Positions 4,890 through 64,000 of a DNA stretch of 64,000 nucleotides are shown here, one piece after another (position 1 is the stretch's first letter; each line of letters opens with the position of its first letter). The notes under the pieces were generated by a model, which had not been told where the DNA came from, made no database searches, and was given only the letters and a program-made list of their open reading frames with translations. Position numbers and translations under genes: made by a program. The stretch is from assembly GCA_963930775.1 (NCBI GenBank), contig OZ005690.1:12364411-12428410 (forward strand). The letters are read 5' to 3'. Origin of the DNA: Cliona cf. orientalis (taxonomy: Eukaryota; Porifera; Demospongiae; Clionaida; Clionaidae).

Positions 4890-4911
4890 AGGCGACCAGA
4901 ACACTAAGCAG

Positions 4912-5247: not shown

Positions 5248-5253
5248 ATTTAA

Positions 5254-5497: not shown

Positions 5498-5528
<31 letters not shown>

Positions 5529-6268: not shown

Positions 6269-6316
6269 TTAAAACTTATCTACTGTACACAGTATATGGC
6301 ATAGTAGAAAGCTTAA

Positions 6317-6559: not shown

Positions 6560-6593
<34 letters not shown>

Positions 6594-7333
6594 TATTAGG
6601 CCTAATTAAGCATGTGGGCGTGTTCCTGGCACTGTGTGGAGTGTGTGCGTGTGCGTTAATGCAGGTTTTATTGCTTCCGATTGGGCGTGGCTTCACGGGC
6701 CAGTGCTTGGACATCGGCGCCTGGGACTTGGCCTCGGCGATAGGTGGGCGTGTCCCGGCTGCGGTGGTGACCTTTGAACCCCGCGAGGAGGCTTTGGGGG
6801 CGTGGCAGGAGGTCAAAGGTGAGGCCATGTCTGTTAATGAGGCTCTGTACGGCGGTGCGATCGAGGGGCCTGTACGGCTGGACGGAAGCTGACGATGGTT
6901 TGAAGCGGATGTGGTTGCGATGACGTGTTGTTACTCCGCCCACACAGGAAATGAGGTGAGCTCTTGCGTGGGCGGTGTGGCAGAACGGCCTCCAAGTGTT
7001 TGTGTGTGTTTTGGCCTTGAGGAAGCTGTGTGTTTTAATTGCGATTGATTGTGGGCTTCCGGTGGACATCCGGTGGTTAGTAGGCACTTGATTGAGAATG
7101 GTGGTCCTTGGGGAACAGGGTGGGGCTGTTTTGGGCGTGGCCTGGCCCCTCCCTTCCGGCTCGGCTTCCGGTCCATGGAGGATATTAAATGAACACTTCC
7201 GGCTCTAGCAGCCACACCCCTGAGACCTGTGCAATTAAAAGGGCGTGGTTACACAACATGCACCTCACTAATGACTTTGATGTGGTTTAGGTGTCATATC
7301 CCCCACCTCACGCCCACGCAATTTAATGGTACC
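6317..7333 (-). mobile_element. TTAA-type MITE copy 4, intact
   Basis: A 1017 bp near-identical neighbour of copy 3, flanked by TTAA at 6313-6316 and 7334-7337. Only ~44 bp separates the two copies. The near-identity implies very recent duplication or insertion. Confidence 0.85.
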
Positions 7334-7374
7334 TTAATTATTTAAATCTTTTCTTTTTTTCAAGGCGACCAGAA

Positions 7375-15358: not shown

Positions 15359-15490
15359 AGAAAATTTAGGTTTGGAATCAGGAGAACAGTAGCCATGCAA
15401 TATGAAATGCCATCCATAAGCATGAGTATATAATATTCATACATAATTTTTAGCAGTCTACTGTTAATACTTTTTTATCATGGCATACAG

Positions 15491-15774
15491 GACATGATAC
15501 ATTCAGTGGGCTGACCGATGATGGAAAGATTGCTGTGGCTTCCTCAGTAACTTTTGTTGCTGGCTCAAGTACATTTTTTATAATTGGCGTTTTATGTGGA
15601 CACTTCTGTCGAAAAGAGAGGCACAACATTCAGACTAGTACAGGTCCCCGGACCACTAGTCAGTCTGATCAAGGGAATATCTCAAGCACTCCTGTCTATG
15701 ATGATGTGGTACTAAAGCAGCATGAACAAGAGTTAGAACTGAAAGAGAATATTGCTTATACTTCAGTTCAGTAA
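15491..15774 (+). CDS. Orphan terminal exon: transmembrane + ITIM-like tail
   Basis: An acceptor (catacag) at 15490 opens an exon in phase 1 that runs to TAA at 15774. It encodes a short juxtamembrane stretch, a hydrophobic helix (core VTFVAGSSTFFIIGVLCGHF), basic stop-transfer residues (RKER), and a ~55-residue tail containing VYDDV and ending ELKENIAYTSVQ. The IAYTSV motif fits the ITIM consensus, and the end is clearly related to the ELKDNVAYVTL tails of the minus-strand cluster. No matching ectodomain or signal exons were found upstream within the window, where a MULE-like element and a MITE occupy the DNA. It is therefore either the end of a gene with a long interrupted intron or a relict exon. 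It is on the same strand as receptor A but does not share its tail. Confidence 0.7.
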
Positions 15775-44600: not shown

Positions 44601-45603
44601 GACGTGCACGTGGCAGGTAGCTACTCAGTAGAGTAGAACTATACTGCAGCTGGCTATTGTCTTCATGCTTTCATGATAATACCAAGGGCTTACATTAATA
44701 ATAAGATAATCATTGATCAGGCTGTTTCATTATTAATACCTAGTCTCTGTGCATTCTTGCAAGTATGAGATATTAAAATACATGGGTCCAAAAACATTAT
44801 TAATAACCTACCTCACTCCATAGATGTCAAGACAGAGAGTTGTTGTGCATATAATTATAGTATCTGCCAGTAATTGGGGTGCATGAGATGCATGCATGGT
44901 TGAATGCACCCCAATTACTGGCAGATAACCATTTTGTTGGTAGTGACAGGAAACACTTACAGTGGCCTTATAAATACAGCCAAGATATGGACGATCCTTT
45001 CCATGTTATGACATGTGGTGAACGACCAGTCTAGACATGTATTATAATGTCGGGAACAGTTTACTTTTTTGTGGCATACAATATCAGGAATCTGCTAATA
45101 ATAATATTATTATGGTCCTGCCTTTCCGATGACCCCTTACCAATTTCGAATGGTAAATGGTCGACAGACACAGAGGTGCACTATTGATAGCTTTGTATGG
45201 GTACATGCTGAACTGACGTCCCTTACCAGTCGACCGAGCAGCACAAGCTTGAATGCCCTATATATCATCAAAGGCAATTGATCTTTTATACATGCAGCTT
45301 GTGCCTGTCATAGTCTAACCTACAAATTGTAAGTTAATTAATCTGCATGGAATTCCTTACTTGTGGTGTTGTATGTACCAAGTACAAGTGTAATTTCGTG
45401 CTCATTCAATGTCATGTACTTTAATTTAATAGTATTACTATCAAATAGTATTAATATGATTATAGAGCCAGGGGCTAGGCATGCATTGCAATGCAATAAC
45501 AAAGAACACTGAGAGTGGTCTGGGCATGAGATCCACAGAGCAGATAAAGATGAACGTATATACATGATCTAACTCAAAAAGTGATGAAAGGATTTATATT
45601 TAT
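41666..45603. other. Intergenic region between the two receptor arrays
   Basis: No supported gene is seen. About 42252-42790 is a degraded copy of the 20836-type MITE. About 44195-44455 is a dispersed repeat with a G10 homopolymer and the GGTCTGGGGGCATGCTCCCC core shared with 11540. 44861-44927 is a perfect hairpin (listed separately). Other sequence is AT-rich and unique. Confidence 0.5.
44861..44927. other. 67-nt hairpin with perfect 23-bp arms
   Basis: TATCTGCCAGTAATTGGGGT... at 44861-44883 is exactly complementary to 44905-44927, with a 21-nt loop. The size is pre-miRNA-like. Related AATTGGGGT words at 44150 and 21730 suggest it could instead be a tiny palindromic repeat family. Confidence 0.55.
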
Positions 45604-45659
45604 TTAGGGTGCAGGGTGGCATAGGCTACATTATCCTTGCAGGGACGGAAAAAGCTGAC

Positions 45660-47366
45660 TCAGCATGAACAGACAATGTCCACGTCAACTGCAGCTGCTT
45701 CAAATGAACAAGAGGGGGATCTGGAGACGAATCCAATAATGAACATCAACACCGACACCACAACTGCTACACACGACACAGATATCAATGCTGAGACATT
45801 AGGCTTTCCTGCTGCTGTATGTTGATGGAAGTATACCTCCCAATAATTAATGGACATGTCAATAATAATAATTATTATTATTGATACTCAAGCAAATCAC
45901 CTTCAGTTTGGGCTTGTGATGTTTCCAATTCCCATTCCCCATTCTCCAAGCATGTTGTTGCATCGGTTCTAGCAATAAGAAATCCTGAACAACATATAAT
46001 ATTATTTGCATCAATCTTTGTCGATTCTTTCATGGAATCATTTATGTGGAGTACATGGAGTGGATTGTTGTTACATATAACTGCTGGAACTGGAATAAAA
46101 CAAGCAAAATGTTTATGAAAAACAAGTAGTCATGACATTTTACCTGATGTAACACCAGTTGTTCCCATTCCACCAGTACACTCTACCTCTATGGGGTCTG
46201 GTTCCCATTCTCCATTCCCCATACACATAGATGAGTTAGATCCATTGAGTATCAGTCCAGGAGGGCAGGTGAATGTGATAGTTTGTCCCTCTCGTGCTGG
46301 ATCTACATAGTCCAGGGCTAAAGCATTAGTCAGTTCCATTGGGTCACTACACTTGCCTGCAGTGGAGTAAGTTCATGTCATTTGATGTACAGCATGCAAT
46401 CAAACATCTAACTTACTATAGTTTAGCAAAAGAGCTTTAGTCCGAATGAGCTGCCTACAGATACTATTTTGAGTGACACTCACATTGTACAGTGTGTTAT
46501 ATGACAGTACTAGCTGAATGCTCATGTTTCCAGTAGGCATCACATTGTTTAACTGTGGGTTAGCACTGACACTGACATTACTTAGAAGCTGGTAATAATA
46601 AGTTTGTGAACTTAAGATAATCCACTCCAGAGTTATTGTCACTACATTGCTTGAGAACTGTTCTGAGCGAGATTGAAGACTCAAATCTGATTAAATATGA
46701 AATCCATAATAACGTAATGTACCGCGGTCGCACACGTTGTGAATTCTAGAATAATAATATTACATAGATTCCTGGAATATTGTGCAAGGTAGATTAGCTT
46801 TATAGAAAGTAGGCTATGTCTCCCCATCCTATATACCTATGGATAAGATTATGAATGTTTACCAAACTGGCCAGGATCTATAATTCTGATGGTAGTTGTT
46901 GCCACCGAGTTAATTGATGTTGAGCCTTCAAAGCAGTTCACCACAGACCCATTCAGATCATTGGTTACAGGGTTGACAATCATCCTGGATATCAGAGGCA
47001 AGCTATCATTACCAGAGAGCCTTGAGGCAGTGAGAGTGGAGCCACTGATCATTACTTGTCGAGGAGCACCACTAGGACCAATGGATGTTAAGACTGCTAT
47101 TCCAGTAAAGGTCATAGTCTGAGGTATCATTACAGTTACTTCCCATCTGTGAAACATTCCTGTATTGTTGCACATCAGCTCCAGCTGATCTCCTTCCTGG
47201 CAAACTGCTGCCACTGGTGAGGGAGAGATCTCTACCACTCCTGCTGGCAGCACAAAGAATAATCATGAACTAGTTACATTGTTAAATGACATCCCCCACC
47301 TCTTGTAAATTCTGAAGCTGATAATAGAAGTAAAGCTAATGATAGCACAACCCCACAAACTTTCAT
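45660..47366 (-). CDS. M1: Ig-FN3-CCP receptor with ITIM tail lost by micro-inversion
   Basis: Exons (5' to 3' on minus): signal peptide 47366-47300 (MKVCGVVLSLALLLLSASEF); Ig-like 47240-46863 (cysteines in PVAAVCQEG and VVNCFEG); FN3-like 46686-46417 (LEWIILSSQTYYYQ, YNVSVTQ); sushi 46356-46144 (ITFTCPP, CMGNGEWEPDP); second sushi-like 46089-45901 (CCSGFLI...); transmembrane 45808-45660 (ALISVSCVAVVVSVLMFIIG). All joins are phase 1 and open, ~421 residues. After the helix the normal tail is replaced by an ~87-bp inverted copy of itself (45640-45726). The protein ends FVSRSPSCSFEAAAVDVD plus a few residues, with no ITIM. The original ITIM codons survive downstream, at about 45605-45639, beyond the stop. 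Confidence 0.75.
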
Positions 47367-47819
47367 TTTGAGCTGCAAAAACTAAATGGGCAATTCCTTG
47401 TCCGTGGCGTTCAGCTTATGCAGGTCTACACTATTAACGACCATTTCCATGTTTCGATTGGTGAGCCATTGTACGTGACCACCTATCAGTGCTACTCCAC
47501 ATGTAAAAAAAACATGCTAGTTGTAAAAAAACTCCTTGCTCGTGGTGTTGTGCAAACAAGAGTGTAATTCCTCCTTCGTTGTGGTGTTTAATAATAATAT
47601 TATAGGAGCACATGCATGAACGCTGAGTATAACATACAAGTGTCACACTGATTCCTAGTTCTTATGTACGATGGCAAGTGCATGTGAATAGAAATACTGT
47701 ATTCAAAACACAAATATTATTAAAACTGTTATTCTTTTTGTCATCTGGAGTATCCTGATCCACGGAGCAGATACAGATGATTGTGCATGCTAACTCAAAA
47801 AGTAATATCAAGAAAGGAT

Positions 47820-49571
47820 TTATTTAGGACGCAGGGTGACATAGGCTACATTATCCTTGAGCTCCAGATCCCCCTCTGGTTCATCTGAAGCAGCTGCAGT
47901 TGATGTGGACATTGTCTGTTCATGCTGAGTCAGCTTTCTCCGTCTCTGACTGAAACAGTGCCCACAGATGAATCCAATAATGAACATCAACACTGACACC
48001 ACAACTGCTACACACGACACAGATATCAATGCTGGAACATTATCTGAATTAGGCTTTCCTGTATGTTGAAGGAAGTATACCTCACAATAATTAATGCAAT
48101 TATAGTAATATTGATACTCAAGTAAATTACCTTCAGTTTGGGCTTGTGATGTTTCCAATTCCCACTCCCCATTCTCCAAGCATGTTGCTGTATTGGTTTT
48201 AGTGATGAGAAATCCTGAACAACACATATTCTCCTTTGTTGATTCTTTCGTGGAATCATTTACCAGTATGTGGAGTACATAGAGTGGATCACTACATACA
48301 CTAGTTACAGGTACTGCTGGAATAAAACAAACAGTATCATGTTTATGAAAGTCTAGAACAAATAATCATGATGACATTCCATTCCACCGATGCACTCAAC
48401 CTCTCCAGGGTCTGGTTCCCATTTTCCATTCCCCATACATGTGGATGAGTTAGATCCATTGAGTGTCTGTCCAGGAGGACAGGTGAATGTGATAGTATGT
48501 CCCTCTAGTGCTGGCTCTACGTAGCCCACAGCTAAAGCGTTGGTCAGTTCCATTGGGTCACCACACTTGCCTACAAGAATAGCAAGTTGGCATACTGCAC
48601 TGCCAAAATATTTGTGTGACTTACTGAAGTTCAGCTCAATAATCTTAGTTTGATTGAGCAGCCGACAGGTGCTGTGCTGAGTGACACTCACATTGTACAG
48701 TGTGTTATATGACAGTTCCAACTGAACTCTCATGTTTCCAATAAATATCACATTCTTAGGTTGAGGATATGCGCTAACAATGATGTTACGTAGAAACTGC
48801 TGATAATACGGTTGTGAATTTACAAGCATCCACTCCAGGGTTACTGTGACTCCATCACTCAAGAAATCTTCTGGATCAGATCGTATATTTAACTCTGAAA
48901 AATCAAAAGCAATTGGAACTTGTCAGATGATCATTGATTTTATCAGTGGATTGCATGCCATTGTATGGGTATGTTCATTGATCTTGGGTTGGGGCAATCA
49001 CTATAATCTGTACATACATGTCCCTTCCATATAATACTGTGGTGTCTTACCAAATCGTTGAGAATCTATGATTTGGATGGTGGTTGTGGCCACCAAGTTT
49101 GTGTCCAGTTCAACGCAGCTCACCACAGTTCCATTCAGACCTCTTCTCACAGAGCTGATTGTTACCCTGGATATTAGTGGCAGGACATTTTGATCAGAGA
49201 GCCTTGAAAAGTGATCGTGGAGCTGCTAATCAACAGCGGCATAGGTATGCCACTTGCTCCAATTGATGAGACAGGCTCTGCTGTGTGGCTCACATTCTCA
49301 GGGAAAACAGTGAACTTCCATTGGTGATCTATCCCTAATATTGATGTAGTGTTGCATATCACCTCCAGCTGATCTCCTTCCTGGCAAACCGGGGCCACTG
49401 GTGAGGGAGAGATCTCAACCACTCCTGTATTAAGATATTCAATTGCTAACTTATGAGATGACAGCATAAATCATGAACTTCATATTAAAATGACATCCTC
49501 CCACCTCTTGTATATTCTGGAGCTGACGATAGAAGCAAAGCTAGTGATAGTACAAGCCCACAAGCCGTCAT
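47820..49571 (-). pseudogene. M2: ITIM receptor with Ig frameshift and lost donor
   Basis: Exons: signal peptide 49571-49505 (MTACGLVLSLALLLSSAPEY); Ig-like 49424-49051; FN3-like 48894-48625; sushi 48570 to ~48376; second sushi-like 48316-48131; transmembrane plus tail 48058-47820 (ELKDNVAYVTLRPK). The Ig exon is 374 bp because one T is missing from a run (about 49206-49209), shifting frame to a stop after KMSCH. The sushi exon has lost ~24 bp including its normal donor; a weak GT at 48375-48374 would rescue splicing in phase. Either lesion alone could be tolerated or be an error; together they suggest a pseudogene. Confidence 0.7.
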
Positions 49572-49931
49572 TGTACCGCAAAACTGAATGGGCAATTCCT
49601 TGTCCGTAGCGTTCTGCTTGTGGAGTTCTACACTAATATCGACCATTTCCATGTTTTCGATTGGTAGCTCATTGTACGTGACCAGAGAGTAGCCTGTCCC
49701 CACTTCTCCACATGTGAAATAGAAACATGTTAGTTGTCCTTGCTCATGGTGTTGTGCAAATAAGAGTGTAATTCTTCCTTAATAGTGTTGCTAGCACATG
49801 CACGATTTATATAGCGTATGATAGCGATTGCATACATAGAATTTTATATTTTGTTCAGAACACAAAAAATAAACTGTTAATGTAATTTTATCATCTAGAG
49901 TATCCTGACTAGATACCAACAACTATGTACA

Positions 49932-50085
49932 CACGTTGAAACAGGCGATTGAGAAGTATAAAAGGAAGAGAAAAAATCTCAGGACTTAGCTGCAATTTGA
50001 ACCCAGGACCTTCTGAATTCTAGTCAGACACTCTTACCAACTGAGCTACTAAGCCCTGATGGCAGCGGAGTGTAGGATAGGTGGT
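49932..50085 (-). mobile_element. tRNA-derived SINE insertion (tRNA-like head)
   Basis: A 154-bp insertion flanked by ATGTACA on both sides (49925-49931, 50086-50092). The paralogous DNA downstream of M9 (about 60930-60950) lacks it. On the minus strand about 50056-49984 reads as a tRNA: acceptor arms GGGCTTAG / CTAAGTCC pair, D-arm box A (TAGCTCAGTTGG), anticodon stem TCTGA/TCAGA with loop CTAGAAT (formal anticodon AGA), B box GGGTTCAAAT, then a T run. The T stem is mismatched and a serine tRNA would need a long variable arm, so it is not a functional tRNA gene. Confidence 0.7.
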
Positions 50086-50357
50086 ATGTACAGTAGATAC
50101 ACAGTAATTGGAATATCATTGCATTCAGTGCACAAAATTAATTACGGAGTAGGCTCATCCCCAGGTGCTAATAGCATAATATACAATGCCATAATACAAC
50201 TTGACACTGAGAGTGGCCTGGGCATGAGGCTATGGATATAAATATCCATCGAGCTGCCCGCTCAATAAAGATATGAATGTGAGTGATAGAAAGTCTTGAC
50301 TAACTCAAAAAGTGATATAATAATTATGATATTATCGTATGATTGTCCCTGATCGAT

Positions 50358-52169
50358 TCATTTTGGGCGCAGGGTGACATAGGCTACATTATCCTTGAGC
50401 TCCAGATCCCCCTCTGGTTCATTTGAAGCAGCTGCAGTTGACGTGGACACTGTCTGTTCATGCTGAGTCAGCTTTTTCCGTCTCTGACTGAAACAGTGCC
50501 CACAGATGAATCCAATAATGAACATCAACACTGACACCACAACTGCTATACACGACACAGATATCAATGCTGGAACATTATCCTTTCCTGCTGCTGTACA
50601 TAATAATCAATAGAAATTTAATGTCAATAATAATATTGATATACTCAAGCAAATCACCTTCAGTTTGGGCTTGTGATGTTTCCAATTCCCATTCCCCATT
50701 CTCCAAGCATGTTGCTGTATTGGTTCTAGCAATGAGAAATCCTGAACAGCACGTAGTTTCCTTTGTTGATTCTTTCATGGAATCATTTATGTGGAGTACA
50801 TAGAGTGGATTATTGTTACATACATCAGCTGGAACTGGAATAACAAGTGATGTTGAAAAACAAATAATCATTACACTTAATGCTAATGTACCGGATGTTG
50901 TAATACTAGTTGTTCCTATTTCACCAGTACACTCTATCTCTCTGGGGTCTGGTTCCCATTCTCCATTCCCCATACATGTGGATGAGTTAGATCCGTTAAG
51001 TATCTGATAAGGAGGACAGACAAATGTGATACTTTGTCCCTCTAGAGCTGGATCTGTATAGCCCATAACTATAGCATTAGTCAGCCCCATTGGTGTACTA
51101 CACTTGACTGCAGGGAGTAAAGTTCATGACATTAGATTTGATGAGCAATGTGTATAATATAGTCTAAGAGCTTACAATAGTTCAGCAGTAGGACTTGAAT
51201 TCGATTGAGTTGCTGACAGGTGTTGTGCTGAGTGACACTCACATTGTACAGTGTGTTATACGACAGTTCCAACTGAGCTCTCATGTTTCCAGTAAATAAT
51301 ATCATATTGTTTAGCTGTGGGTCAACACTGACACTGACATTGTGTAGAAACTGTTGATAATAATCTTGTGAATTCAAGAGAGTTCACTCCAGAGTTACTG
51401 TTATTCCATCACTTGAAAACTGTTTTGCTTGAGATTGAACACTCAAATCTAATTGGAGCAGATAAAATTTTGATGTTTATAGTGGCATTAAATTCTATTT
51501 GAAAATAATTATGAGTTGTTATCAGCTTATTGTAACACTACCCGTGTCATATTATACAGGAGGTTGGTATAAAATTGTAGGTATGATAGTCTGTGATCAT
51601 TCCATACCCCCTCCCCCTTCTCTCTTTAGCATGCATTGTTCAGGGATTACAGTTTCTTACCAAACTAGCCAGGATCAATGATTCGTATGGTGGTTGTTGC
51701 CACTGAGTCAGTTGATGATATGCTTTCAAAGCAGTTCACCACAGTTCTATTCAGACCACTCCTTATAGGACTGACTACTGCCCTGGATATCAATGGCAGG
51801 ACATCTTGACCAGAGAGCCTCAAGAAAGTGATCACAGAGCCACTGAATGTCAGTGTTTGAGATACACCACTGGTACCAGCTGATGTGACAGGTGTTGGTG
51901 TGAGGGTAATATTTTCAGGAGAGAAAGTGAACTCCCATCGGTGAACAGCACCTGATGATGTACATGTCAGTTCCAGCTGATCTCCTTCCTGGCAAACTCA
52001 GCGGCTGCCACTGGTGAGGGAAAGATCTCCACCACTCCTGTTGGCAGCACAAACTTCGGACTAATTATGAGCTAGTTATATTATTAAACGACATCCTCCA
52101 ACCTCTTGTAATTTCTGGAGTTGATGATAAAAGCAAAGCTAGTAACAGTACAAGCCCACAAACCTTCAT
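50358..52169 (-). pseudogene. M3: decayed ITIM receptor
   Basis: Signal peptide 52169-52103 (MKVCGLVLLLALLLSSTPEI); Ig-like 52037-51661 with a 5-bp insertion near 51995-52005 that breaks frame just before the first cysteine; FN3-like 51448-51176 with the LEW tryptophan changed to TGA (51386-51384); sushi 51107-50892 intact; second sushi-like 50834-50658 intact; transmembrane plus tail 50587-50358 intact (ends NVAYVTLRPK, stop TGA). Two independent lesions make it a pseudogene despite a perfect tail. It shares with M9 a shortened GKDNV start of the last exon, absent from the others. Confidence 0.75.
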
Positions 52170-52636
52170 TGTAATGATAATTGAACTACAAAACTGAATG
52201 AGCAATTCCTTGTCCGTGGCGTTCAGCTTATGCATTTCTACACTACTAACGACCATTTCCATGTTTTCGATTAGTGAGCCATTGTACGTGACCACCTATC
52301 AGTGCTTATACTCCACGTGTAAAAATAAACATGTAAATAAGTCCTTGCTCGTGGTGTTGTGCAAACAAGAGTGTAATTCCACCTTCATTGTGGTGTTTAA
52401 TAATAATAATATGCAAGCACATGCATGAAAGAGTGCAAGTGTCACACTGACTCCTAGTTCTTATGTATGATGGCAAGTGCATGTGGATAGAAATACTTAT
52501 TCAAAACACAAAAATATTAAACTGTTATTCTTTTTGTCATCTGGAGTATCCTGATCCACGAAGCAGATACAGATGAATGATTGTGCATGATAGAAGTTTT
52601 GACTAACTAGCTAAAAAAGCGATGTCAAGAAAGGAT

Positions 52637-54464
52637 TTATTTAGGTCGCAGGGTGACATAGGCTACATTATCCTTGAGCTCCAGATCCCCCTCTGGTTCA
52701 TTTGAAGCAGCTGCAGTTGACGTGGACATTGTCTGTTCATGTTGAGTCAGCTTTTTCCGTCTCTGACTGAAACAGTGCCCACAGACGAATCCAATAATGA
52801 ACATCAACACTGACGCCACAACTGCTACACACGACACAGATATCAATGCTGGAACATTATCTGAATTAGGCTTTCCTGTATGTTGAAGGAAGTATATACC
52901 TCCTATTAATTAAAGGAAATGTCAATAATATTGATACTCATGCAAGCAAAACACCTTTAGTTTGGACTTGTGATGTTTCCAATTCCCATTCCCCACCATT
53001 CTCCATGCTTTGAGAATAGGGATAATAACAATATTGTTGTATTGGTTCTAGCAATAAGAAATCCTGAACAATACATACTTTCCTTTGTTGATTCTTTCAT
53101 GGAATCATTTAATATGTGGAGTACATAATATATAGAGTGGATCACTACATATTATACTAGTTACTGTTACCGCTGGAATAAAACAAACAGTATCGATCAT
53201 GTTTATGAAAAACTAGAACAGATAATAATCATGACGCTTAATGATGACATACCTGATGTTGTAACACCAGTTGTTTCCATTCCACCGATGCACTCAACCT
53301 CTCCAGGGTCTGGTTCCCATTCTCCATTCCCCATACATGTGGATGAGTTAGATCCATTGAGGGTCTGTCCATGTGGACAGATGAATATAATAGTTTGTCC
53401 CTCTAGTGCTGGATCTGTATAACCCACAGCTAAAGCATTGGTCACTTTCATTGGGTCGCTACACTTGCCTGTGGAATGTTATCATGAAACTCAAAATTTA
53501 TCATGATGGGCATAGTAATAATTATTATTTCAGAGCTTACTATAGCTCAGCTCAATAAATGTAGTCCCAATGAGCTGGTGACAGGTGCTGTGCTGAGTGA
53601 CACTCACATTGTACAGTGTGTTATATGAGAGTACCACTTGAGCTCTCATGTCTCCAGTAAACACCACATTGTTTAGCTGTGGGTTAGCACTGACACTGAT
53701 GTTACGCAGAAGGTATTGATAGTAATTTCGTGAATTTAAGAGAGTCCACTCCAGAGCTACTATGACTCCATCACTAGAGAAATCTTCTGAACCAGATTGT
53801 ACGCTCAATTCTGAAAAAAAAAAAGAAGATTGAAGTTTATTAGTTAATAATCTAGTGGATAGCGTGCATGCTGCATTGGAGTATATAGTAGTATGATTTT
53901 TGATCATTGATCGGGTCTATGTCCTATGATCTGACTGTGGCATCTTACCAAATTGTTGAGAATCTATGATTTGGATGGTGGTGGTGGCTACCAAGCCTGT
54001 GGCCAGTTCAAAGCAGCTCACCACAGTTTTATTCAGACCTCTGCTCACGGGACTAATTGTTATCCTGGATATCAGTGGCAGAACATATGGACCAGAAAGT
54101 CTCGAGAAAGTGACCATAGAGTTGCCGATACTCAGTGGTGATATAGGTATACCACTCACTCCGATTGATGTGACAGGCCTTGTTGTGTAGCTTATATTCT
54201 CAGGGAAAACAGTGAACTGCCACTGGTGATCTATCCTTGATGTATTGCACATCAGCTCCAGCTGATCTCCTTCCTGGCAAACCGGGGCCACTGGTGAAGG
54301 AGAGAGCTCCACCACTCCTGTACTGAGATATTAAGCTAACTTATGATAATATTAAAAGAGTAATCATGAACTGCATATTAAAATGACGTCCTCCCACCTC
54401 TTGTAAATTCTGGAGCTGATGATAGCAGCAAAGCTAGTGATAGTACAAGCCCACAAACCTTCAT
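52637..54464 (-). CDS. M4: Ig-FN3-CCP-TM-ITIM receptor, second sushi exon broken
   Basis: Signal peptide 54464-54398; Ig-like 54317-53949 (VCQEGDQLELMCN, W in HQWQFTV, VVSCFEL); FN3-like 53810-53541; sushi 53468-53253 (IIFICPHGQ, CMGNGEWEPDP); transmembrane plus tail 52875-52637 (helix VAVVASVLMFIIGFVCGHCF, tail ends NVAYVTLRPK). The second sushi-like exon (53172-52955) is 218 bp: it gained ~10 bp near 53120-53140 and has a replaced stretch near 53010-53035, breaking frame. All exons are phase 1-1, so skipping it gives an open ~386-residue receptor. Confidence 0.72.
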
Positions 54465-54887
54465 TGTAATAATAATTGAACTGCAAAACTGAATGGGCAA
54501 TTCCTTGTCCGTGGCGTTCAGCTTATACATGTCTACATTATTAACGACCATTTCCATGTTCTCGATTGGTGAGCTATATACATGTACCTAACCACAGAGT
54601 AGCCTGTCAGCTGCTACTCCACGTGTAAAAAAAACACGCTAGTTGCGTTGTGCAAACTAGAGTGTAATTCCTCCTTCGTTATGGTATTTAATATACAAGC
54701 ACATGCATGAGTACGTATCACGCTCATGGTTATTGGTAAGTGCATGTGCATAGACTGAAAACACAAAAATATTAAACTGTTATTCTTTTTGTCATCTGGA
54801 GTATCCTGATCCACGGAGCAGATACAGATGAATGATTGTGCATGATAGAAGTTTTGACTAACTCAAAAAGTGACATCATGAAAGGAT

Positions 54888-56691
54888 TCATTTAGGTCGC
54901 AGGGTGACATAGGCTACATTATCCTTGAGCTCCAGATCCCCCTCTGGTTCATTTGAAGCAGCTGCAGTTGACGTGGACACTGTCTGTTCATGCTGAGTCA
55001 GCTTTTTCCGTCTCTGACTGAAACAGTGCCCACAGACGAATCCAATAATGAACATCAATACTGATGCCACAACTGCTACACACGACACAGATATCAATGC
55101 TGGGATATTATCTGAATTAGGCTTTCCTGTATGTTGAAGGAAGTATACCTCTCAATAATTAAAGGAAATGTCAATAATATTGATACTCAAGAAAGTCACC
55201 TTCAGTTTGGGCTTGTGATGTTTCCAATTCCCATTCCCCATTCTCCAAGCATGTTGTTGTATTGGTTCTAGCAATGAGAAATCCTGAACAACATATATTT
55301 GCATCAACCTTTGTTGATCCTTTCATTGAATCATTTATGTGGAGTACATAGAGTGGATTGTTGTTACATACAACAGCTGGAACTGGAATAACAAAATAAT
55401 GATGTTTATGAAAAACAAATAATCATTACTCTGAATGCTAATGTACCTGATGCTGTGGCACCAGTTGTTCTCATTATACCAGTACACTCTACCTCTCTGG
55501 GGTCTCGTTCCCATTTTCCATTCCCCATACATGTGGCCGAGTTAGATCCATTAAGCATCTGTCCAGGTAGACAGGTGAATGTGATAGTTTGTCCCTCTAG
55601 TGCTGGATTTACGTAGCCCAGAGTTAAAGCATTAGTCAGTTCCATTGGATCACTACACTTGCCTGTGGAAAAATAAGAAGTTCAAATTTATTTATCGTGA
55701 TATGCAGCATAATATTATTATTTTAGAGCTTACTATAGCTCAGCTCAATAAATGTAGTCCCAACGAGCTGTCGACAGGTGCTGTGCTGAGTGACACTCAC
55801 ATTGTATGGTGTGTTATACGATAGAATTAGCTGAACTCTCATGTCTCCAGTAAACACCACATCCGTAGGTTGTGGATTTGCAGTAACACTGATGTTACGT
55901 AGAAACTGCTGATAATACGGCTGTGAATTTATAAGCGTCCACTCCAGGGTTACTGTGACTCCATCACTCAAGAAATCTTCTCGTATACTTAACTCTGAAA
56001 AATCAAAAGCAATTGGAGCTTATCAAATGATCGTTGATTTTATCATGCCATTGTATGAGGTTGGATACAAGCCAGGTGTATGTTCATTGATCTTGGGTTG
56101 GGGCAATCACTATAATAACCTGTACATACATACACATGTCCCTTCCATATTATACTGTGGTGTCTTACCAAACTGTCGAGAATCTATGATTTGGATGGTG
56201 GTTGTGGCCACCAGAGTTGTATCCAGTTCAACACAGCTCACCACAGTTCCATTCAGACCTCTTCCCACGGAGCTGATTGTTACCCTAGATATCAGTGGCA
56301 GGGCATTTTGACTAGAGAGCCTTGAAAAAGTGATTGTGGAGCTGCCGATCAACAGTGGCATAGGTATTCCACTTGCTCCAATTGATGAGACAGGCGCTGC
56401 TGTGTGGCTCACATTCCCAGGGAGAACAATCAACTTCCATTGGTGATCTATCCCTGTTGTCGTGTTGCACGTCAGCTCCAGTTGATCTCCTTCCTGGCAA
56501 ACTGGGGCCACTGGTGAAGGAGTGATCTCAACCACTCCTGTACTGAGATATTCAATAGCTAACTTATGAGATGACAGTATAAAGAGTAAATCATGAACTT
56601 CATATTAAAATGACATCCTCCCACCTCTTGTAAATTCTGGAGCTGATGATAGAAGCAAAGCTAGTGACAGTACAAACCCACAAACCTTCAT
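54888..56691 (-). CDS. M5: intact Ig-FN3-CCP-CCP-TM-ITIM receptor
   Basis: The reference member of the cluster. Exons: signal peptide 56691-56625 (MKVCGFVLSLALLLSSAPEF); Ig-like 56537-56169 (cysteines in VCQEG, ELTCN and VVSCVEL, tryptophan in HQWKLIV); FN3-like 55994-55734 (VTLEWTLINSQPYYQQFL, YNVSVTQHSTC); sushi 55662-55447 (ITFTCLPGQMLNGSNSATCM); second sushi-like 55382-55200 (two Cys in NICCSGF, TTTCLENGEWE); transmembrane plus tail 55126-54888. All introns are phase 1 with GT-AG ends; total 1335 bp, 444 residues. The tail has basic QRRKK, a Ser/Thr-rich stretch and ELKDNVAYVTLRPK, whose VAYVTL fits the ITIM consensus (SH2-phosphatase docking in known families; here inferred). Cell-surface type I protein; ligand unknown. 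Confidence 0.85.
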
Positions 56692-56850
56692 TTTGAACTG
56701 CAAAAACTGAATGGGCAATTCCTTGTCCGTGGCGTTCAGCTTGTGCATTTCTACACTACTAACGACCATTTCCATGTTTTCGATTGGTGAGCAATTGTAC
56801 GTGACCACCTATCAGTGCTATTCCACATGTAAAAATAAACATGCTGGTTG
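56692..56850 (-). promoter_or_regulatory. Conserved 5' leader block of cluster genes
   Basis: About 150 bp immediately upstream of the M5 ATG, strongly conserved before M1 (47367-47515), M2 (49572-49715), M3 (52170-52325), M4 (54465-54625), M8 (60460-60610) and M9 (62994-63135), and beyond in part. In several copies it is open in frame with the signal peptide (words ENMEMVV...SVE and KLNATDKELPIQF), but in M1 a TAG closes the frame. It is best read as 5' UTR/promoter; an N-terminal extension is a weaker alternative. Confidence 0.5.
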
Positions 56851-57166
56851 TAACATAATTCCTTGCTCGTGTTGTGCAAACAAGAGTGTAATTCCTCCTT
56901 CGTTGTGGTGTTTAATAATAGTAATATGCAAGCACATACACGAACAAGTGCAAGTGTCACAATGACTCCTAGTTCTTATGCACAATGGCAAGTGCATGTG
57001 CATAAAAATACATACGTATAAGCTTACTTATTCAAAACACAAAAATATTAAACTGTTATTCTTTGTCATCTGGAGTATCCTGATCCACGGAGCAGATACA
57101 GATGAATGATTAATTATGCATGATAGAAGTTTTTGACTAACTCAAAAAGTGACGTCATGAAAGGAG

Positions 57167-57950
57167 TTATTTAGGACGCAGAGTGACATAGGCTACATTA
57201 TCCTTGAGTTCCAGATCCACCTCTGGTTCATTTGAAGCAGCTGCAGTTGACGTGGACATTGTCTGTTCATGCTGAGTCAGCTTTTTCCGTCTCTGACTGA
57301 AACAGTGCCCACAGACGAATCCAATAATGAATATCAACACTGATGCCACAACTGCTACACACGACACAGATATCAATGCTGGAACATTATCTGAATTAGG
57401 CTTTCCTGTATGTTGAAGGAAGTACACCTCCCAATAATTAATGGAAATGTCAATAATAATATTGATACTCACCTTCAGTTTGGGGTTGTGATGTTTCCAA
57501 TTCCCATTCCCCATTCTCCAAGAATGTTGTTGTATTGGTTCTAGCAATGAGAAATCCAGAACAACATAATATATTTGCATCAATCTTTGTCGATTCTTTC
57601 ATGGAATCATTGATGTGGAGTACATAGAGTGGATTGTTGTTACATACAACAACTGGAACTGGAATAAAACAAGCGATGATGTTTATGAAAAACAAGTAAC
57701 TATTGTGATGTTTAATGCTGACATATAATACCTAATGTGACACCAGTAACCATTCCACCAGTACACTCTACCTCTCTGGAGTCTGGTTCCCATTCTCCAT
57801 TACCATACATGTGGCCGAGTTAGATCCATTGAGCATCTGTCCATGTGGACAGATGAACATAACAGTTCATCCCTCTAGTGCTGGATCTATGTAGCCCATA
57901 ACTAAAGCATTGGTCGGTTCCATTGGATCACTACTGTAACACTTGTCTAT
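57167..57950 (-). pseudogene. M6: truncated ITIM receptor (3' exons only)
   Basis: Transmembrane plus tail exon 57405-57167 is intact (EVDLELKDNVAYVTLRPK). The second sushi-like exon 57658-57473 is open, but a cysteine codon is changed (TTTFLENGEWE instead of TTTCLENGEWE). The sushi exon (about 57945-57730) has an in-frame TGA (57869-57867, CAA in its sisters), a small indel at the CMGNG motif, and an altered acceptor. There are no FN3, Ig or signal exons upstream; instead a foldback lies at 57973-58078. Confidence 0.75.
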
Positions 57951-57972
57951 GAAATAATATTATAATAAGTTC

Positions 57973-58280
57973 GGTTTCTACGTGATTTAGAAGACCTCAG
58001 CTGCAGGGCTCAGTAGAACCCTTGCTTCACTTGGGATTCTACACAGAGTCCTTTGGTCTTCTAAATCACATAGAAACCTCCTAAACAGTGTCTAACTATT
58101 ATTTTGTACCTAGAATAGATTCTCTATCCTACATTTTCATTGTCATTTTCACCTTAGCTGTAATATTATATTTATCAAGCGATAAAATTAATATTATTGT
58201 ACACAATATTATGCAATAACTGGTGTTTAATTCATGATTAGTTTGTTTTCACACTCATTTATAGTAGTATTTTCTATATT
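57973..58280. repeat. Foldback hairpin and spacer between M6 and M7
   Basis: GGTTTCTACGTGATTTAGAA (57973) and its complement (to 58078) form ~24-bp arms with one mismatch around an inner gggttctac/gtagaaccc-like palindrome. It resembles the hairpin at 40905-41047. The remainder to 58280 is AT-rich with no gene. Confidence 0.55.
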
Positions 58281-60370
58281 TCATCTTGGGCGCAGAGTGA
58301 TATAGGCTACGTTTTTGTTCAGATCTAGGTCATCCACACCTTCACTCGAGGGATCTGGTGTTGCAGCAGTATTGCTGGTCGCTTGGTCATGTGACTTTCT
58401 GTATTTCTGACCGAGATAGTGACCACCGAGAAATCCGATTATTAGCATCACGGCTGATACCACAACCAATACGCAAGATACAGCTATCAGTGCATCTCTC
58501 AATTTGTCGTCATTTACTGGATCAGATACACATCCTAAACATGGGGAGAGGGAGAGAGAGAGCAAAACAGAGAAGAATAAGGTGATCATATAATGGTATT
58601 ATATGCTAGCGTAGATTCTTCCTGATAGCTAGATCATAATTACCTTCAAATCTCAATTGAGTGATATTCAGCTCTTCTTCCAAGCAAGTCATTGTATCGG
58701 CTTCGATGACCACAATTCCAGAACAACAGATAAGACTGTTGAAACCTGAATTTCTAAATTCCTTGAAATTCATGATAGTTATGGAATTTCTGATCTGAAG
58801 TATATACTGTGGACTTCCACAGGCAGTTGGTTGCAATCTTATAATATGAGTGCAGTTGACCTCCCCTGGGTCTGGTTCCCATTCTCCATTCCTCATGCAT
58901 GTTGATGAGTTGGGTCCGCTGAGTTCCAGTCCAGAGGTACAAGCAAATGTGATACTTTCTCCCTGTTGTGCTGGCTCTTCATAGCCCATAACTTGGGTAT
59001 TATTGTGAGTAAGCAATTTTGGATTCCTACACTTACCTGCATTTATTATGTGATTACACCAATCAAGGGATTACTTTTATTAATGGTGCTATATTATAAT
59101 CATAATAAATAGAAGTAAGATAATTATCAGCTAACTAATTCAGAATCAGAAGAAAGGTGACCCATTCAATATCTTTATGCAAAGATATGTATTCAGTGCA
59201 ATGATATGTAAAAACTTATCTACAATATTATATCCATCCTCCCCAATCTAGTTTATATACTCTTACTATAGTTCAGAAGGATGAATTCCGTTTGATTAGG
59301 TCGACCACAGATACCAGGCTGAGTTACAGTCACATTGTACTCTATGTTATAGAGCAGTGTCAGTTGAGCACTCATGTTTCCCGGGTATGTTATTATCATC
59401 TCTGGATCTGGGATAACGTTAATACTAGCATTCTTCAGTAGCCGTTGATAGTATTGCTGTGAAAGTGAAACTATCCATTCTAACAATAGTACGATTCTGT
59501 TGCAATTAAACTCTTCAGAATGTGATCGAATACTCAAGTTTGATATCAGTGTATCTAAAAGAAATGTAACCAGGACAGCAAATTATATTATTAACTAGCC
59601 CCATAATCACAGTGTGATTGAAAAATTTAATTGTAGGAAACCCTATAGTGCTCATTCAGCAAGTGCCCACTCCAGGGTCAGCATGAAAGTCAAGAAATCA
59701 GTATAGCAAATTAATATGTTATGCACATCTCAATACATAGGTTTAATAATAATTATTATGTGATATAATGTAACCTCCCTCCCTCATAGGATGTGAAATA
59801 AGTAATTTATTAATCATGCATGGCCTAATCATCCAAGGTGTAACACCATGAAAGTTACCTCCAGCTCCTCTGATGATTTGGATGGTGGTCGCAGCCGTGG
59901 CAGCCATGGAATTATAATATGCTTCTGCATCGATACAGGTCACTTGAACTCCATTCAGACCCTCACTCACGGGATTGATTATCATTCTAGACATCAGTGG
60001 TGTAGTGTCTTGAGCAGAGAGTCTTAAAATGGTGAAGGTGGTTGAGTTGACCACCACTGATGGAGGTGTACCATCTGGGCCTTCTGATGTAATATCAAGC
60101 TGGTAGACTGAAGCTGATCCACTCTCAATAATCACGGTGAACGTCCATCTTAGAAACATTCCTGTTACATTGCATGTCAGTTCCAACTGATCTCCTACTT
60201 GGCAGACTGGTGCCACTGCTGAAGGAGAGAGCTTAACCAATCCTATATAGTATTAGTATCATCGTGAGTCAAAGTCTTAAATTAATATGATACATTTCAC
60301 CTTTTGCAAAATTTATTGTTGGTGCAACCAGAAGAAAAATTAATAAAATGCCATGACTCAGAGACTTCAT
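58281..60370 (-). CDS. M7: divergent intact receptor with fused double-sushi exon
   Basis: Exons: signal peptide 60370-60301 (MKSLSHGILLIFLLVAPTIN); Ig-like 60242-59859 (PVCQVGDQLELTCNVTG, W in LRWTFTV, VTCIDAE); FN3-like 59554-59267 (LLLEWIVSLSQQYYQRLL, YNVTVTQPG); one 393-bp exon 59036-58644 holding both sushi-like domains, which are separate exons in every other unit; transmembrane plus tail 58534-58281 (helix ALIAVSCVLVVVSAVMLIIG; tail ends NKNVAYITLRPR). All open, phase 1, ~462 residues. VAYITL keeps the ITIM consensus although most of the tail has diverged, which argues for selection on the motif. Confidence 0.85.
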
Positions 60371-60423
60371 TTCTGGCAGAGCGCAAATAGTATTATTATG
60401 CAATCATAGAAGCTTAACAAAAG

Positions 60424-60720
60424 CTAGTGATAGTATACAAGTCCACAAACCTTCATTGTAATAATAATATCGAACTGCAAAAACTGAATGGGCAATTCCT
60501 TGTCCGTGGCGTTCAGCTTGTGTGTTTCTACACTATTAACGACCATTTCCATGTTTTCGACATTGTACGTGACCACAGAGTAGCCTGTCAATGCTACTCC
60601 ACATGTAAAATTAAATCCCTTGCTCGTGGTGTTGTGCAAACAAGAGTGTAATTCCTCCTTCGTTGTGATATTTAGTATGCAAGCACATGCATGAACCAGT
60701 ACAGGTGTCACACTGACTCC
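60424..60720 (-). pseudogene. M8: isolated 5' leader and broken signal exon
   Basis: It matches the family leader block and the start of the signal exon (MKVCGLVYYH then stop). A 2-bp change shifts frame and the copy ends ~50 bp before the M7 start codon. There are no downstream exons of its own. Its position suggests the leader could now serve M7. Confidence 0.65.
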
Positions 60721-61227
60721 TAGTTCTTATGTACGATGGCAAGTGCATGTGGATAGAAGAAATATTTATTCAAGTACAAAAATATTAAACTGTTATTCTT
60801 TTTGTCATCTGGAGTATCCTGATCCACGGAGCAGATACAATACAGATGAATGATTGTGCATGATAGAAGTTTTGACTAACTCAAAAAGTGAGTTTGTCAT
60901 CTAGAGTATCCTGACTAGATACAAACAACTATATGTACACATGTACAGTAGATACACAGTAATTGGAATATCATGTACCATTTGTATGAATTATGGAGTA
61001 GGCTCATCCCAGGTGCTAATAGCATAATTAAAATATACAATTCAATAATAAAACTTGACACTGAGAGTGGCCTGGGGATGAGGCTATGTATGGATGCAAA
61101 TATCCACCGAGCTTCCTGCTCAATAAAGAAGAACATGCATGATAATAATTATATAGAAAATCTTGACTAGCTCAAAAAGTGGCCATAATAATTTACGATA
61201 TTATCGTATGATTGTCCCTGATAGAAT
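60721..61227. other. Intergenic DNA downstream of M9
   Basis: It contains family intergenic words (gtcatctggagtatcctgat, twice in modified form) and a stretch paralogous to the DNA downstream of M3 (about 50140-50240, ctgagagtggcctggg). It lacks the SINE found there. No gene is seen. Confidence 0.55.
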
Positions 61228-62993
61228 TTATTTAGGACACAGGGTGACATAGGCTACATTATCCTTGAGCTCCAGATCCCCCTCTGGTTCATTTGAAGCA
61301 GCTGCAGTTGACGTGGACATTGTCTGTTCATGCTGAGTCAGCTTTTTCCGTCTCTGACTGAAACAGTACCCACAGACGAATCCAATAATGAACATCAACA
61401 CTGACACCACAACTGCTACACACGACACAGATATCAATGCTGAAACATTATCCTTTCCTGTTAAAGGAAGTATACCTCCCAATAATTAATGAAAATGATA
61501 ATATTGATACTCAAGAAAATCACCTTCAGTTTGGGCTTATGATGTTTCCAAAACCCATTCCCCATTCTCCAAGCATGTTGTTGTATTGGTTCTAGCAATA
61601 AGAAATCCTGAACAACACATACTTTCCTTTGTTGATTCTTTCATGGAATTACTTATGTGGAGTACATAGAGCGGATCACTACATACACTAGTCACACTTA
61701 CCGCTGGAATAAAAAAAAACAATTTTAAAAACTAGAGCAGATAATTGTGACGTTTAATGCTGACATACCGGTAGCTGGTGTTGTGGCACCAGTTGTTCTC
61801 ATTCCACCAGTACACTCTACCTCTCTGGGGTCTGGTTCCCATTCTCTATTCCCCATACATGTGGATGAGTTAGATCCGTTAAGTATCTGATAAGGAGAAC
61901 AGGCAAATGTGATATTATGTCCCTCTAGAGCTGGATCTGTATAGCCCACAACTATGGCATTGGTGAGTTCCATTGGGGTACTACACTTGACTGCAGGGAG
62001 TAAGAATAAATTTGATGTGCAATTTGTAGTCTAAGAGCTTACAATAATTCAGCAGCAGGACTTGATTTCGACTGAGCAGCTCACAGGTGCTGTGCTGAGT
62101 GATACTCACATTGTACAGTGTATTATACGATAGTTCCAACCGAACTCTCATGTTGCCAGTAAACATCACACTGCTAGGTTGTGGATTTGTGCTGATGCTG
62201 ATATTGTGTAGAAACTGTTGATAATAATCTTGTGAATTTAATAAGAGAGTCCACTCCAGAGTTACTGTTATTCCATCACTTGAAAACTGTTCTGTGCAAG
62301 ATCGAGCACTCAAATCTAAATGGAGTAGATATATAGTGGCATTAAATTCTGTTTCAAGAATATGAATTATTATCAACTTATTGCAATACTACCAGGGTCA
62401 TATTATGCAGGGGTTTGGCATATAGGATAACCTGTGATCATTCCATATATCCCTCCCCCTTCTCCCTTTAGCATGCATTGTTCAGGGATAGCAGTTTCTT
62501 ACCAAACTGGCCAGGATCAATGATTCGTATGGTGGTTGTTGCCACAGAGTCAATTGATGATATGCCTTCAAAGCAGTTCACCACAGTTCTATTTAGACCA
62601 TTGCTCACAGGACTGACTACTGTACTTGTCCTGGATACCAGTGGCAGGACATTTTGATCAGAGAGCCTTGAGAAAGTGATCACGGAGCCACTGAATATCA
62701 GTGTTTGAGATACACCACTGGTACCAGCTGATGTGACAGGTGTTGCTGTATACGACACATTCTCAGGAAAGACAGTGAACTCCCATCGGTGAACTGTCTG
62801 TGATGAGGTACATGTCAGTTCCAGCTGATCTCCTTCCTGGCAAACTGCTGCCACTGGTGAGGGAGAGATCTCAACCACTCCTGCTGGCAGCACAAAGAAT
62901 AATCATGAGCTATCCATTAAATGACATCATACAACCGACCTCTTGATTCTGGAGCTGATAATAGAAGTAAAGCTAGTGCCCACAAATCTTCAT
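61228..62993 (-). pseudogene. M9: ITIM receptor with broken signal exon and pre-TM stop
   Basis: The signal exon (62993-62940) is 54 bp instead of 67; ~10 bp are deleted after KICG and TAG follows two codons later, plus a 3-bp loss. Ig-like 62880-62503, FN3-like 62315-62043 and sushi 61990-61769 are intact. The second sushi-like exon 61703-61524 carries TAA (61539-61537) where the sisters read CAA. Transmembrane plus tail 61457-61228 is open (ends NVAYVTLCPK). The stop before the membrane exon would make a soluble product if another start is used, but the signal lesion favours a pseudogene. Confidence 0.72.
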
Positions 62994-63447
62994 TGCTCAA
63001 CTGCAAAACTGAATGGGCAATTCCTTGTCCGTGGCGTTCAGCTTATGCAGTTCTACACTATTAACGACCATTTCCTTGTTCTCGATTGGTGAGCCATTGT
63101 ACGTGACCACCTATCAGTGCTACTCTACGTGTAAAAATGAACGTGCTAGTTGTAAAATAATTCCTTGCTCGTGGTGCTGTGCAAACAAGAGTGTAATTCC
63201 TCCTTCGTTGTGGTGTTTTATAATATACAAGCACATGCACGAGTACGTATCACGCTCACGGTTCTTGGCAAGTGCATGTGCATAGAAGTACATACGTATA
63301 TTTATTCAAAACACAAAAATATTAAACTGTTATTCTTTTTGTCATCTGGAGTATCCTGATCCACAGAGCAGATACAGATGAATGATAATTAATTTTGTGC
63401 ATGATCAGAAGTTTTGACTAACTCAAAAAGTGATGTCATGAAAGGAT

Positions 63448-64000
63448 TTATTTAGGACGCAGGGTGACATAGGCTACGTTATCCTTCAGCTCCAGAGCCC
63501 CCTCTGGTTCATTTGAAGCAGCTGCAGTTGACGTGGACATTGTCTGTTCATGCTGAGTCAGCTTTTTCCGTCTCTGACTGAAACAGTGCCCACAGACGAA
63601 TCCAATAATGAACGTCAAAACTGACCCCACAACTGCTACACACGACGACGCAGATATCAATGCTGGAACATTATCTGAATTAGGCTTTCCTGTATGTTGA
63701 AGGAAGTTATTAGTTAAAGGAAATGTCAATAATGTTGATACTCAAGCAAAACACCTTCAGTTTGTGGTTGTGATGTTTCCAATTCCCATTCTCCATTCTC
63801 CAAGCATGTTGTTGCATTGGTTCTAGCAATGAGAAATCCAGAACAACACATACTTTTCTTTGTCATTGAATCATTTATGTGGAGTACATAGAGTGGATTG
63901 TTTTCACATACAACATCTGGAACTGGAATAAAACAAGTGATGATGTTTATGACAAACAAGTAATCTTGATGTTTAATGTTGACATACCTGATATTGTAAT
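63448..64000 (-). CDS. M10: ITIM receptor, 5' part outside window
   Basis: Transmembrane plus tail exon 63689-63448 (SCVAVVGSVLTFIIGFVCGH; tail ends ALELKDNVAYVTLRPK), second sushi-like exon 63922-63755 (168 bp, shorter by an in-frame loss at the SMTKKSMCCSGF loop) and the donor end of a sushi exon from 63988 onward. All visible parts are open and phase 1. The gene continues beyond the right edge, so the cluster extends further. Confidence 0.8.

Follow-up and report, generated by a model that had tools for sequence, protein, structure and literature searches.

In the genome of the sponge Cliona cf. orientalis, a stretch of 64,000 nucleotides on contig OZ005690.1 (C2:12364411–12428410, hereafter the window) carries an array of genes that, judged from their sequence, probably constitute a germline family of inhibitory recognition receptors signaling through an immunoreceptor tyrosine-based inhibitory motif (ITIM). 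On the minus strand of window positions 45603–64000, nine units follow one another head-to-tail, mostly 2.2–2.5 kb apart. A search of the whole analyzed genome (216.8 Mb) with the exon that encodes the transmembrane (TM) segment and the tail located 50 places, 28 of which lie at 88–96% identity within 136 kb (C2:12352348–12488761). A 300-nucleotide repeat family adds seven copies, 78–96% identical to the reference and spaced by 2.2–2.5 kb with a single gap of 4.1 kb; both the 28 tail exons and this repeat family are far above chance. The tandem receptor cluster described in an earlier note on this DNA is real, and it is larger than first described.

Gene anatomy of the array

A full unit comprises, in this order, a signal peptide exon, an Ig-like exon of about 122–127 residues, an FN-like exon of about 86–95 residues that resembles a fibronectin type III (FN3) domain, a sushi exon, a sushi-like exon and a last exon for TM segment, tail and stop codon. 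All units were modeled with phase-1 junctions throughout, in agreement with the earlier note. Seven joined coding sequences are open in frame, five of them clean; the joined sequence of M7 contains a short stretch doubled by two overlapping exon guesses, and in that of the unit at 73684 the Ig exon is truncated. The splicing of the units is predicted from these models. The intact reference gene is M5 (54888–56691), with the signal peptide at 56691–56625, Ig at 56537–56169, FN-like at 55994–55734, sushi at 55662–55447, sushi-like at 55382–55200, and TM segment, tail (VAYVTL) and stop at 55126–54888; its Ig acceptor site was picked by eye, and an alternative 21 nucleotides upstream is also open.

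The other units on this strand depart from M5 to varying degrees. M1 (45603–47366; signal peptide 47366–47300, Ig 47243–46863, FN-like 46686–46417, sushi 46356–46144, sushi-like 46089–45901, TM from 45808) ends in a broken tail exon whose remnant reads DNVAYATLHPK, and an inverted piece of a tail exon, 86% identical over query positions 37–65, lies inside it on the plus strand (45640–45726). M2 (47820–49571) has the tail VAYVTL and an Ig exon whose frame is broken near 49208, while M3 (50358–52053, VAYVTL) carries in-frame stops in its Ig and FN-like exons, its signal exon not being recovered. In M4 (52637–54464, VAYVTL) all exons except the second sushi-like one are readable. M6 (57167–57946) is a partial unit, which consists of a broken sushi exon, the second sushi-like exon and the TM exon with tail (VAYVTL) and is devoid of Ig and FN exons. 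M7 (58281–60370) belongs to a divergent subfamily and is read as intact: its signal peptide (60370–60301), Ig (60242–59859) and FN-like (59554–59267) exons precede a single exon for both sushi domains (59036–58644) and a TM and tail exon (58516–58281) that ends in VAYITL. M8 (61228–62993, VAYVTL) has a disrupted signal exon and a stop in the second sushi-like exon. M9 (63448–64000 within the window) shows its TM exon with tail (VAYVTL) and second sushi-like exon, the remaining exons following within the next 1242 nucleotides past the window end. A tRNA-Ser(AGA) detected by ARAGORN lies between M2 and M3 (49981–50056, minus strand) and is either a genuine tRNA gene or a repeat that stems from one.

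Intactness was assessed with fixed score thresholds in 144 kb around and including the window, a region free of N. Its minus strand holds 30 TM/tail exons: 27 close whole-tail copies, M1, M7 and one divergent exon (unit 110531), which is counted apart as a TM exon with an ectodomain outside our models. Nine of the 30 units are intact by thresholds, in four more the second sushi-like exon alone is unreadable, and 15 are broken or partial. M7 was added by hand as the tenth intact unit: with both sushi domains in a single exon, it had been scored as broken by the thresholds. M9 is intact by thresholds given the next 1.2 kb and a shifted 3′ end of the FN-like exon, the earlier 3′ end having produced a stop. 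Within the window M5, M7 and M9 thus read as intact.

These results reshape part of what the earlier note had claimed. Instead of ten units we read nine tails on the minus strand of the window, and ten intact units are ruled out, several units being broken or partial. The statement that every tail ends in VAYVTL or VAYITL holds for eight of the nine, with M1 (VAYATL) as the exception. The shared architecture stands in its exon order, but M7 is divergent and the second sushi domain is degenerate. The sequence analyzed represents a single haplotype.

Tail motifs, constraint and mosaic history

In order to count tail motifs, we surveyed by homology the DNA that matches these exons, a sample that is by choice not random. 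Among 71 TM/tail matches, the frame for TM segment and tail is complete in 57, and the 14 incomplete ones were left out; an initial motif-based survey (43/49) was replaced, because its pattern had missed M7 and others. The ITIM consensus [SIVL]xYxx[ILV], as worded in PMC8631942, fits 47 of the 57 complete tails, that is, all 28 close ones and 19 of the 29 divergent ones. The core N-[VI]-[AS]-Y is kept in 53 of the 57, including six of the ten tails without an ITIM; a selection of 17 tail classes shows no variation at N or Y and hardly any at V and A. In addition, 18 of the 57 tails contain a proximal YxxI/L/V that precedes the distal tyrosine by 14–29 residues, mostly by 20. A DNA pattern for VAYVTL built with a codon absent from the array matched at three sites, all of them on other contigs (control: 1).

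The tail end of these genes is strongly constrained. We compared close copies exon by exon after exons with stops or low scores, unit 110531 and M7 had been dropped, so that copy numbers differ per exon (Ig 16, FN-like 22, sushi 24, sushi-like 18, TM/tail 27). Mean synonymous divergence (dS) is 0.487 in the Ig, 0.487 in the FN-like, 0.308 in the sushi, 0.165 in the sushi-like and 0.094 in the TM/tail exon, and the corresponding ratios of nonsynonymous to synonymous differences (pN/pS) are 0.58, 0.49, 0.51, 0.65 and 0.45. In the TM exon, pN/pS is only 0.06 (95% interval 0.00–0.19) over the final 16 codons, whereas it reaches 0.98 (0.47–3.26) in the juxtamembrane part; the intervals are bootstraps over codons that do not model relatedness. 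As both values stem from the same exon, the uniformity of the tail end looks selective. By the same procedure, Ig codons 40–66 in the middle of the domain, a stretch picked after the windows had been viewed, reach 0.90 (0.61–1.34).

The individual exons do not share one history. Pairwise distances in the Ig exon track those in the FN-like exon (r = 0.77, n = 13) and, less closely, those in the sushi exon (0.42, n = 16); FN-like and sushi distances correlate at 0.34 (n = 20), and Ig distances show no correlation with those of the second sushi (−0.05) or the tail (0.01). In the nine units with all five exons the values are 0.66 for Ig and FN-like, 0.14 (not significant) for Ig and sushi, 0.40 for the two sushi exons and approximately zero for the tail with every other exon. 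Differences at fourfold sites in these nine units fall from Ig to tail as 0.289, 0.176, 0.120, 0.121 and 0.116, a milder fall than that of the dS series. With the histories of their first and last exons uncoupled, these genes appear to be mosaics in which the signaling end is uniform.

Identity of the ectodomains

The first sushi domain is the most clearly recognizable part of the ectodomain: Pfam Sushi matches above the cut-off in three of three proteins (E = 3.9e-9 for M5, 6.1e-8 and 2.1e-6). In the second, the same family matches four of seven members (best E 0.0052; M5 14.5 bits versus a cut-off of 20.7) and the last CCP cysteine is absent by eye, and this domain is degenerate. The Ig exon has invariant C13, C23, W33 and C101 in 16 members. 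Pfam Ig matches two of three whole proteins at E = 0.076 and 0.083, below the cut-off, so that the Pfam check that the earlier note had proposed for M5 and M7 places the first sushi above the threshold and leaves the Ig domain under it. A diverse Ig profile retrieved 227 PDB matches, and each of the top 60 is a chain of antibody or nanobody type (best E 0.0046); as the PDB abounds in antibodies, we regard this as support and not as proof. HHalign of the Ig exon against four V domains gave 82%, compared with 0.1% for an FN3 control. These comparisons make an Ig identity of the first ectodomain exon probable. For the FN-like exon, a diverse profile found 1wj3 as best PDB match (E = 0.67), which we take to be an FN3 domain, while a profile of six close members had no PDB match at E ≤ 10.

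SHP-type phosphatases

The genome also encodes candidate readers of an ITIM. On contig C8 (9936138–9938107), two SH2 exons and a phosphatase exon follow one another on one strand within 2 kb, and the second SH2 matches PTPN11 (SHP2) with E = 1e-56. On contig C4 the order SH2, SH2, phosphatase recurs in two more exon sets (7.445–7.461 and 7.506–7.514 Mb), each of which would correspond to one gene. The C8 set and one C4 set read AWPDHG, while the other C4 set reads AWPSDS, whereby its WPD loop looks altered; the encoded phosphatase is possibly weak or dead. For SHP1 a medium nonpolar residue directly after the tyrosine is best and glycine is poor, according to PMC8631942. In the close array this residue is V or I, which fits the SHP1 preference, and in several two-tyrosine tails it is glycine. 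The earlier assignment of an ITIM-type tail is thus strengthened by the pN/pS of 0.06 in the last 16 codons, the fit of 19 of 29 divergent tails and the three SHP-type loci.

Related domains also occur in dense groups elsewhere in the genome. Tyrosine phosphatase domain matches are dense on C15 (7.9–8.1 Mb) and C4 (1.92–2.0 Mb), apparently as expanded protein tyrosine phosphatase families, and SH2 matches cluster on C19 (5.40–5.52 Mb) and C7 (1.89–2.14 Mb), expanded families that could read these tails.

The wider C2 region

The window lies in a far larger region of related exons. Of the 22 places found with the tail query outside the 136 kb, 19 are on C2 at 11.0–12.64 Mb. With the M7 Ig exon, among 150 matches listed (150 of 286 candidates scored), 146 are on C2 and 143 at 10.98–14.19 Mb; with a divergent tail as query, among 149 matches listed (150 of 190 scored; a few are pieces of one exon), 144 are on C2 and 141 at 10.54–13.93 Mb. 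A second Ig family has 80 of its 85 genome matches at C2 10.60–13.97 Mb. Altogether, C2 10.5–14.2 Mb, 1.7% of the genome, holds 94–95% of each listed match set, figures that count exons among the matches listed and not genes. The cluster of the earlier note is consequently a corner of a system whose relatives extend over approximately 3.7 Mb of one contig, some of them with tails outside the ITIM consensus. One such tail, PVYETI, belongs to a TM exon (C2:12454097–12454207) inside the ITIM array and downstream of a divergent Ig-FN-sushi set; by its sequence this receptor is a candidate non-inhibitory partner.

The window itself contains members of this wider population on its plus strand. A TM and tail exon of a divergent relative at 15454–15771 has a proximal PVYDDV and the distal ITIM IAYTSV. 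Open frames of the second Ig family with four exons span 22625–28384 (22625–23143, 24398–24841, 26128–26601 and 27932–28384), and the one exon tested is a CD80-like C2-set Ig domain (Pfam E 2.7e-5, above the cut-off). These exons form either one multi-Ig gene or four short ones, and a TM-like frame is located at 28856–29014.

Proposed mechanism and competing explanations

Based on these observations, we propose that the units encode type I membrane receptors in the germline of a demosponge, the variable V-like Ig tip of which would bind a ligand: a self marker, a neighboring cell or a microbe. Ligand binding would lead to phosphorylation of the ITIM tyrosine (V-A-Y-V/I-T-L) by a Src-type kinase, and the phosphorylated motif would recruit SHP-type SH2-SH2 phosphatases that damp a co-engaged activating pathway. 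The second tyrosine in some C2 relatives, most often 20 residues upstream (P-Y-Y-D-D-V), would suit two-handed SHP binding, and relatives whose tyrosines all lie outside the consensus may signal differently and are candidate partner receptors. The array may have evolved by tandem duplication combined with exon-wise recombination or conversion, which would have kept the signaling end uniform and constrained and varied the Ig end, with broken copies possibly acting as donors.

Several results weigh against an inhibitory recognition family. Among the 29 complete divergent tails, ten miss the ITIM consensus, nine having tyrosines outside it and one having no tyrosine, and four of the ten also lack the NVAY core. 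The motif arises in 3–17% of shuffled copies of 11 tails and is therefore weak evidence alone, so that constraint and recurrence carry the case. The close array tail has a single ITIM, whereas SHP binding normally involves a pair of phosphotyrosines, so that these receptors would have to act as dimers or through a different SH2 protein. No strict activation motif of the ITAM type (YxxI/L-x6-12-YxxI/L) occurs in the 57 complete tails, a search in which activating partners with a charged TM segment were not looked for and would be missed by the TM criterion. Overall positive selection on the Ig domain is rejected (pN/pS 0.58, 0.47–0.71). As for domain identity, Pfam applied to the 16 Ig exons matches Ig_3 in three and ig in one below the cut-off (best E 0.011), while four unrelated families match one Ig exon each, the best being Dsl1_C at E = 0.0094; a six-member Ig profile ranks a leucine-rich-repeat protein first (E = 0.0044) and antibodies next. 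Pfam fn3 matches one of 12 diverse FN-like members (E = 0.049) among eight unrelated one-member matches, and HHalign against two FN3 domains gave 0.2%, which leaves the FN3 identity unproven. Finally, only ten of the 30 minus-strand units in the 144 kb read as intact.

The tail sequence YVTL also fits the AP-2 sorting motif YxxPhi, and the genes could accordingly encode adhesion or scavenger receptors that use the tyrosine for uptake (AP-2 YxxPhi, or NxxY of the PTB type) and their variety for the capture of glycans or microbes. Adhesion proteins often contain sushi, Ig and FN-like modules, and the best conserved core is N-V-A-Y (53/57), with a +3 residue other than I/L/V in six tails that keep it. 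AP-2 needs only the tyrosine and the +3 position, though, and these same six tails retain N-V-A-Y without the latter; moreover, the constraint spans the whole 16-residue end beyond YVTL and SHP-type exons exist in the genome, which makes this explanation unlikely in our view. We judge it very unlikely that the tails recruit an SHP2-type phosphatase for positive signaling in the manner of growth-factor or integrin docking, so that the receptors would not be inhibitory. The best PDB matches of the C8 second SH2 are indeed PTPN11/SHP2 and not PTPN6/SHP1, and vertebrate SHP2 integrates growth-factor and integrin signals (PMC10948527), but the genes form large mosaic arrays with many broken copies. 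Such arrays are typical of recognition receptors and not of growth-factor docking proteins.

The broken copies themselves could point to a largely decayed family, in which most copies are dead, the small intact remainder serves no particular function and the tail uniformity reflects recent conversion. The 15 broken or partial units, the four without a readable second sushi exon and the low tail dS (0.09) agree with such a history, which is nevertheless highly improbable given the step in pN/pS from 0.98 to 0.06 within one exon and the retention of the core in relatives up to approximately 1.4 Mb away. We therefore favor the ITIM-type inhibitory receptor family, whose part in self/non-self recognition would be a possible extension. 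Only tentatively, and with more doubt than conviction, do we go further and regard C2:10.5–14.2 Mb as what in sponges would correspond to a histocompatibility or leukocyte receptor complex. The region would then hold a very large number of mosaic Ig/sushi receptors, the majority inhibitory through an ITIM and others with tyrosines outside the consensus (PVYETI within the ITIM array among them), which an expanded set of three SHP-type phosphatases would read out. It would act as the receptor side of self/non-self recognition, the ITIM–SHP logic predating the sponge split.

Other features of the genome and the window

Silicatein-like exons, up to 85–86% identical to a silicatein sequence, point to a silica-forming demosponge and bear out the sponge origin suggested in the earlier note. 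Two of them, on C12, encode G-A-S-Y-A-F; this pattern has four matches genome-wide (reversed control: 2), and the other two read G-A-C-Y-A-F. In the window, positions 1–8545 form a repeated block with a GC content of 0.49–0.51 at 4–8 kb, in which one set of open frames recurs in both direct and inverted orientation (9–314, 4217–4531, 5869–6183 and 6934–7248) and which also contains a 405-base tandem repeat (7373–8545). A reverse transcriptase fragment on the plus strand (31805–32353; Pfam RVT_1, E = 2.9e-9) is part of a retroelement remnant, and the open frame adjoining it reaches 32831. Tandem repeats of 59/118 bases in two opposite orientations occupy 34811–36078, followed on the minus strand by a weak match to a Tc5-type transposase DNA-binding domain (36449–36751; E = 0.011, below the cut-off).

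Comparison with known recognition systems

Most of the closest known systems belong to other animals. In the tunicate Botryllus schlosseri, the fuhc locus contains 53 FcoR loci with V-type Ig and sushi domains and tails bearing ITIM, hemITAM or core YxxI/L/V motifs, for which an allorecognition role is argued (PMC12065747). FcoR and the sponge genes are alike in being large germline families of (here predicted) type I TM proteins with a V-type Ig domain (here a probable one), sushi domains, tyrosine-motif tails and a clustered locus (polymorphic in the case of FcoR). They differ in domain order, Ig-sushi-Ig-Ig in FcoR versus Ig, FN-like and one or more sushi domains here, in a comparison of tunicate and sponge by description only. 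The Hydractinia Alr genes encode TM receptors of the immunoglobulin superfamily and are arranged in tandem within a single chromosomal complex. Their tails bear tyrosine motifs, including ITIM- and ITAM-type ones (PMC12065747), and the cnidarian allorecognition complex is one of duplicated genes, with 22 putative genes in Podocoryna (PMC13119343). These 22 genes compare with about 140 C2-region matches listed per query in our analysis, which are exons and not genes. Unlike the sponge units, Alr ectodomains are Ig-like without sushi domains. The KIR and LILR genes of the vertebrate leukocyte receptor complex resemble the sponge array in their tandem arrangement, broken copies, mosaic genes and ITIMs (for example VTYAQL) with some members lacking one; they recruit SHP1/2 and, in contrast to the sponge genes, have Ig domains only, with no sushi or FN3-like domain; their activating members possess charged TM segments.

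Within sponges, aggregation factors, SRCR-sushi proteins and Ig-TIR receptors act in recognition or adhesion, and sushi, FN3 or Ig domains occur in several of them, but they follow another domain plan, and the accessible parts of PMC12065747 and PMC8242945 mention no ITIM-tailed Ig/sushi array. The lipopolysaccharide-responsive genes of Halichondria include sushi-domain and Ig-domain genes (PMC8242945). An ITIM-tailed Ig cluster in sponges is likewise absent from the accessible parts of PMC11999971, PMC8242945, PMC12723187 and PMC5450542, and searches of a partial, open-licence body of literature, by title and opening lines of the abstract, brought up no description of one. A comparison of M5 with viral contigs gave no match. 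We consider the genes a candidate recognition complex: a new sponge family of a known type of system, with a domain plan not met in the literature examined.

To our knowledge, the receptors of sponge graft recognition have not been identified. Sponges discriminate self from nonself grafts with remarkable specificity (PMC5450542), and the main text of that study of graft responses contains none of the words receptor, immunoglobulin or ITIM; according to PMC12065747, the proteins put forward for allorecognition in sponges, cnidarians and ascidians lack conservation. A megabase region of ITIM-tailed Ig receptors together with SHP-type phosphatases supplies a concrete gene set with which the question of the sponge receptors becomes directly testable. 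It would either trace inhibitory-receptor signaling back to the base of the animal tree or demonstrate its repeated origin. Tails that mostly end in the kind of brake signal used by vertebrate inhibitory immune receptors suggest that this mode of recognition may be as old as animals; if true, the C2 complex would date the ITIM–SHP receptor logic before the split between sponges and other animals.

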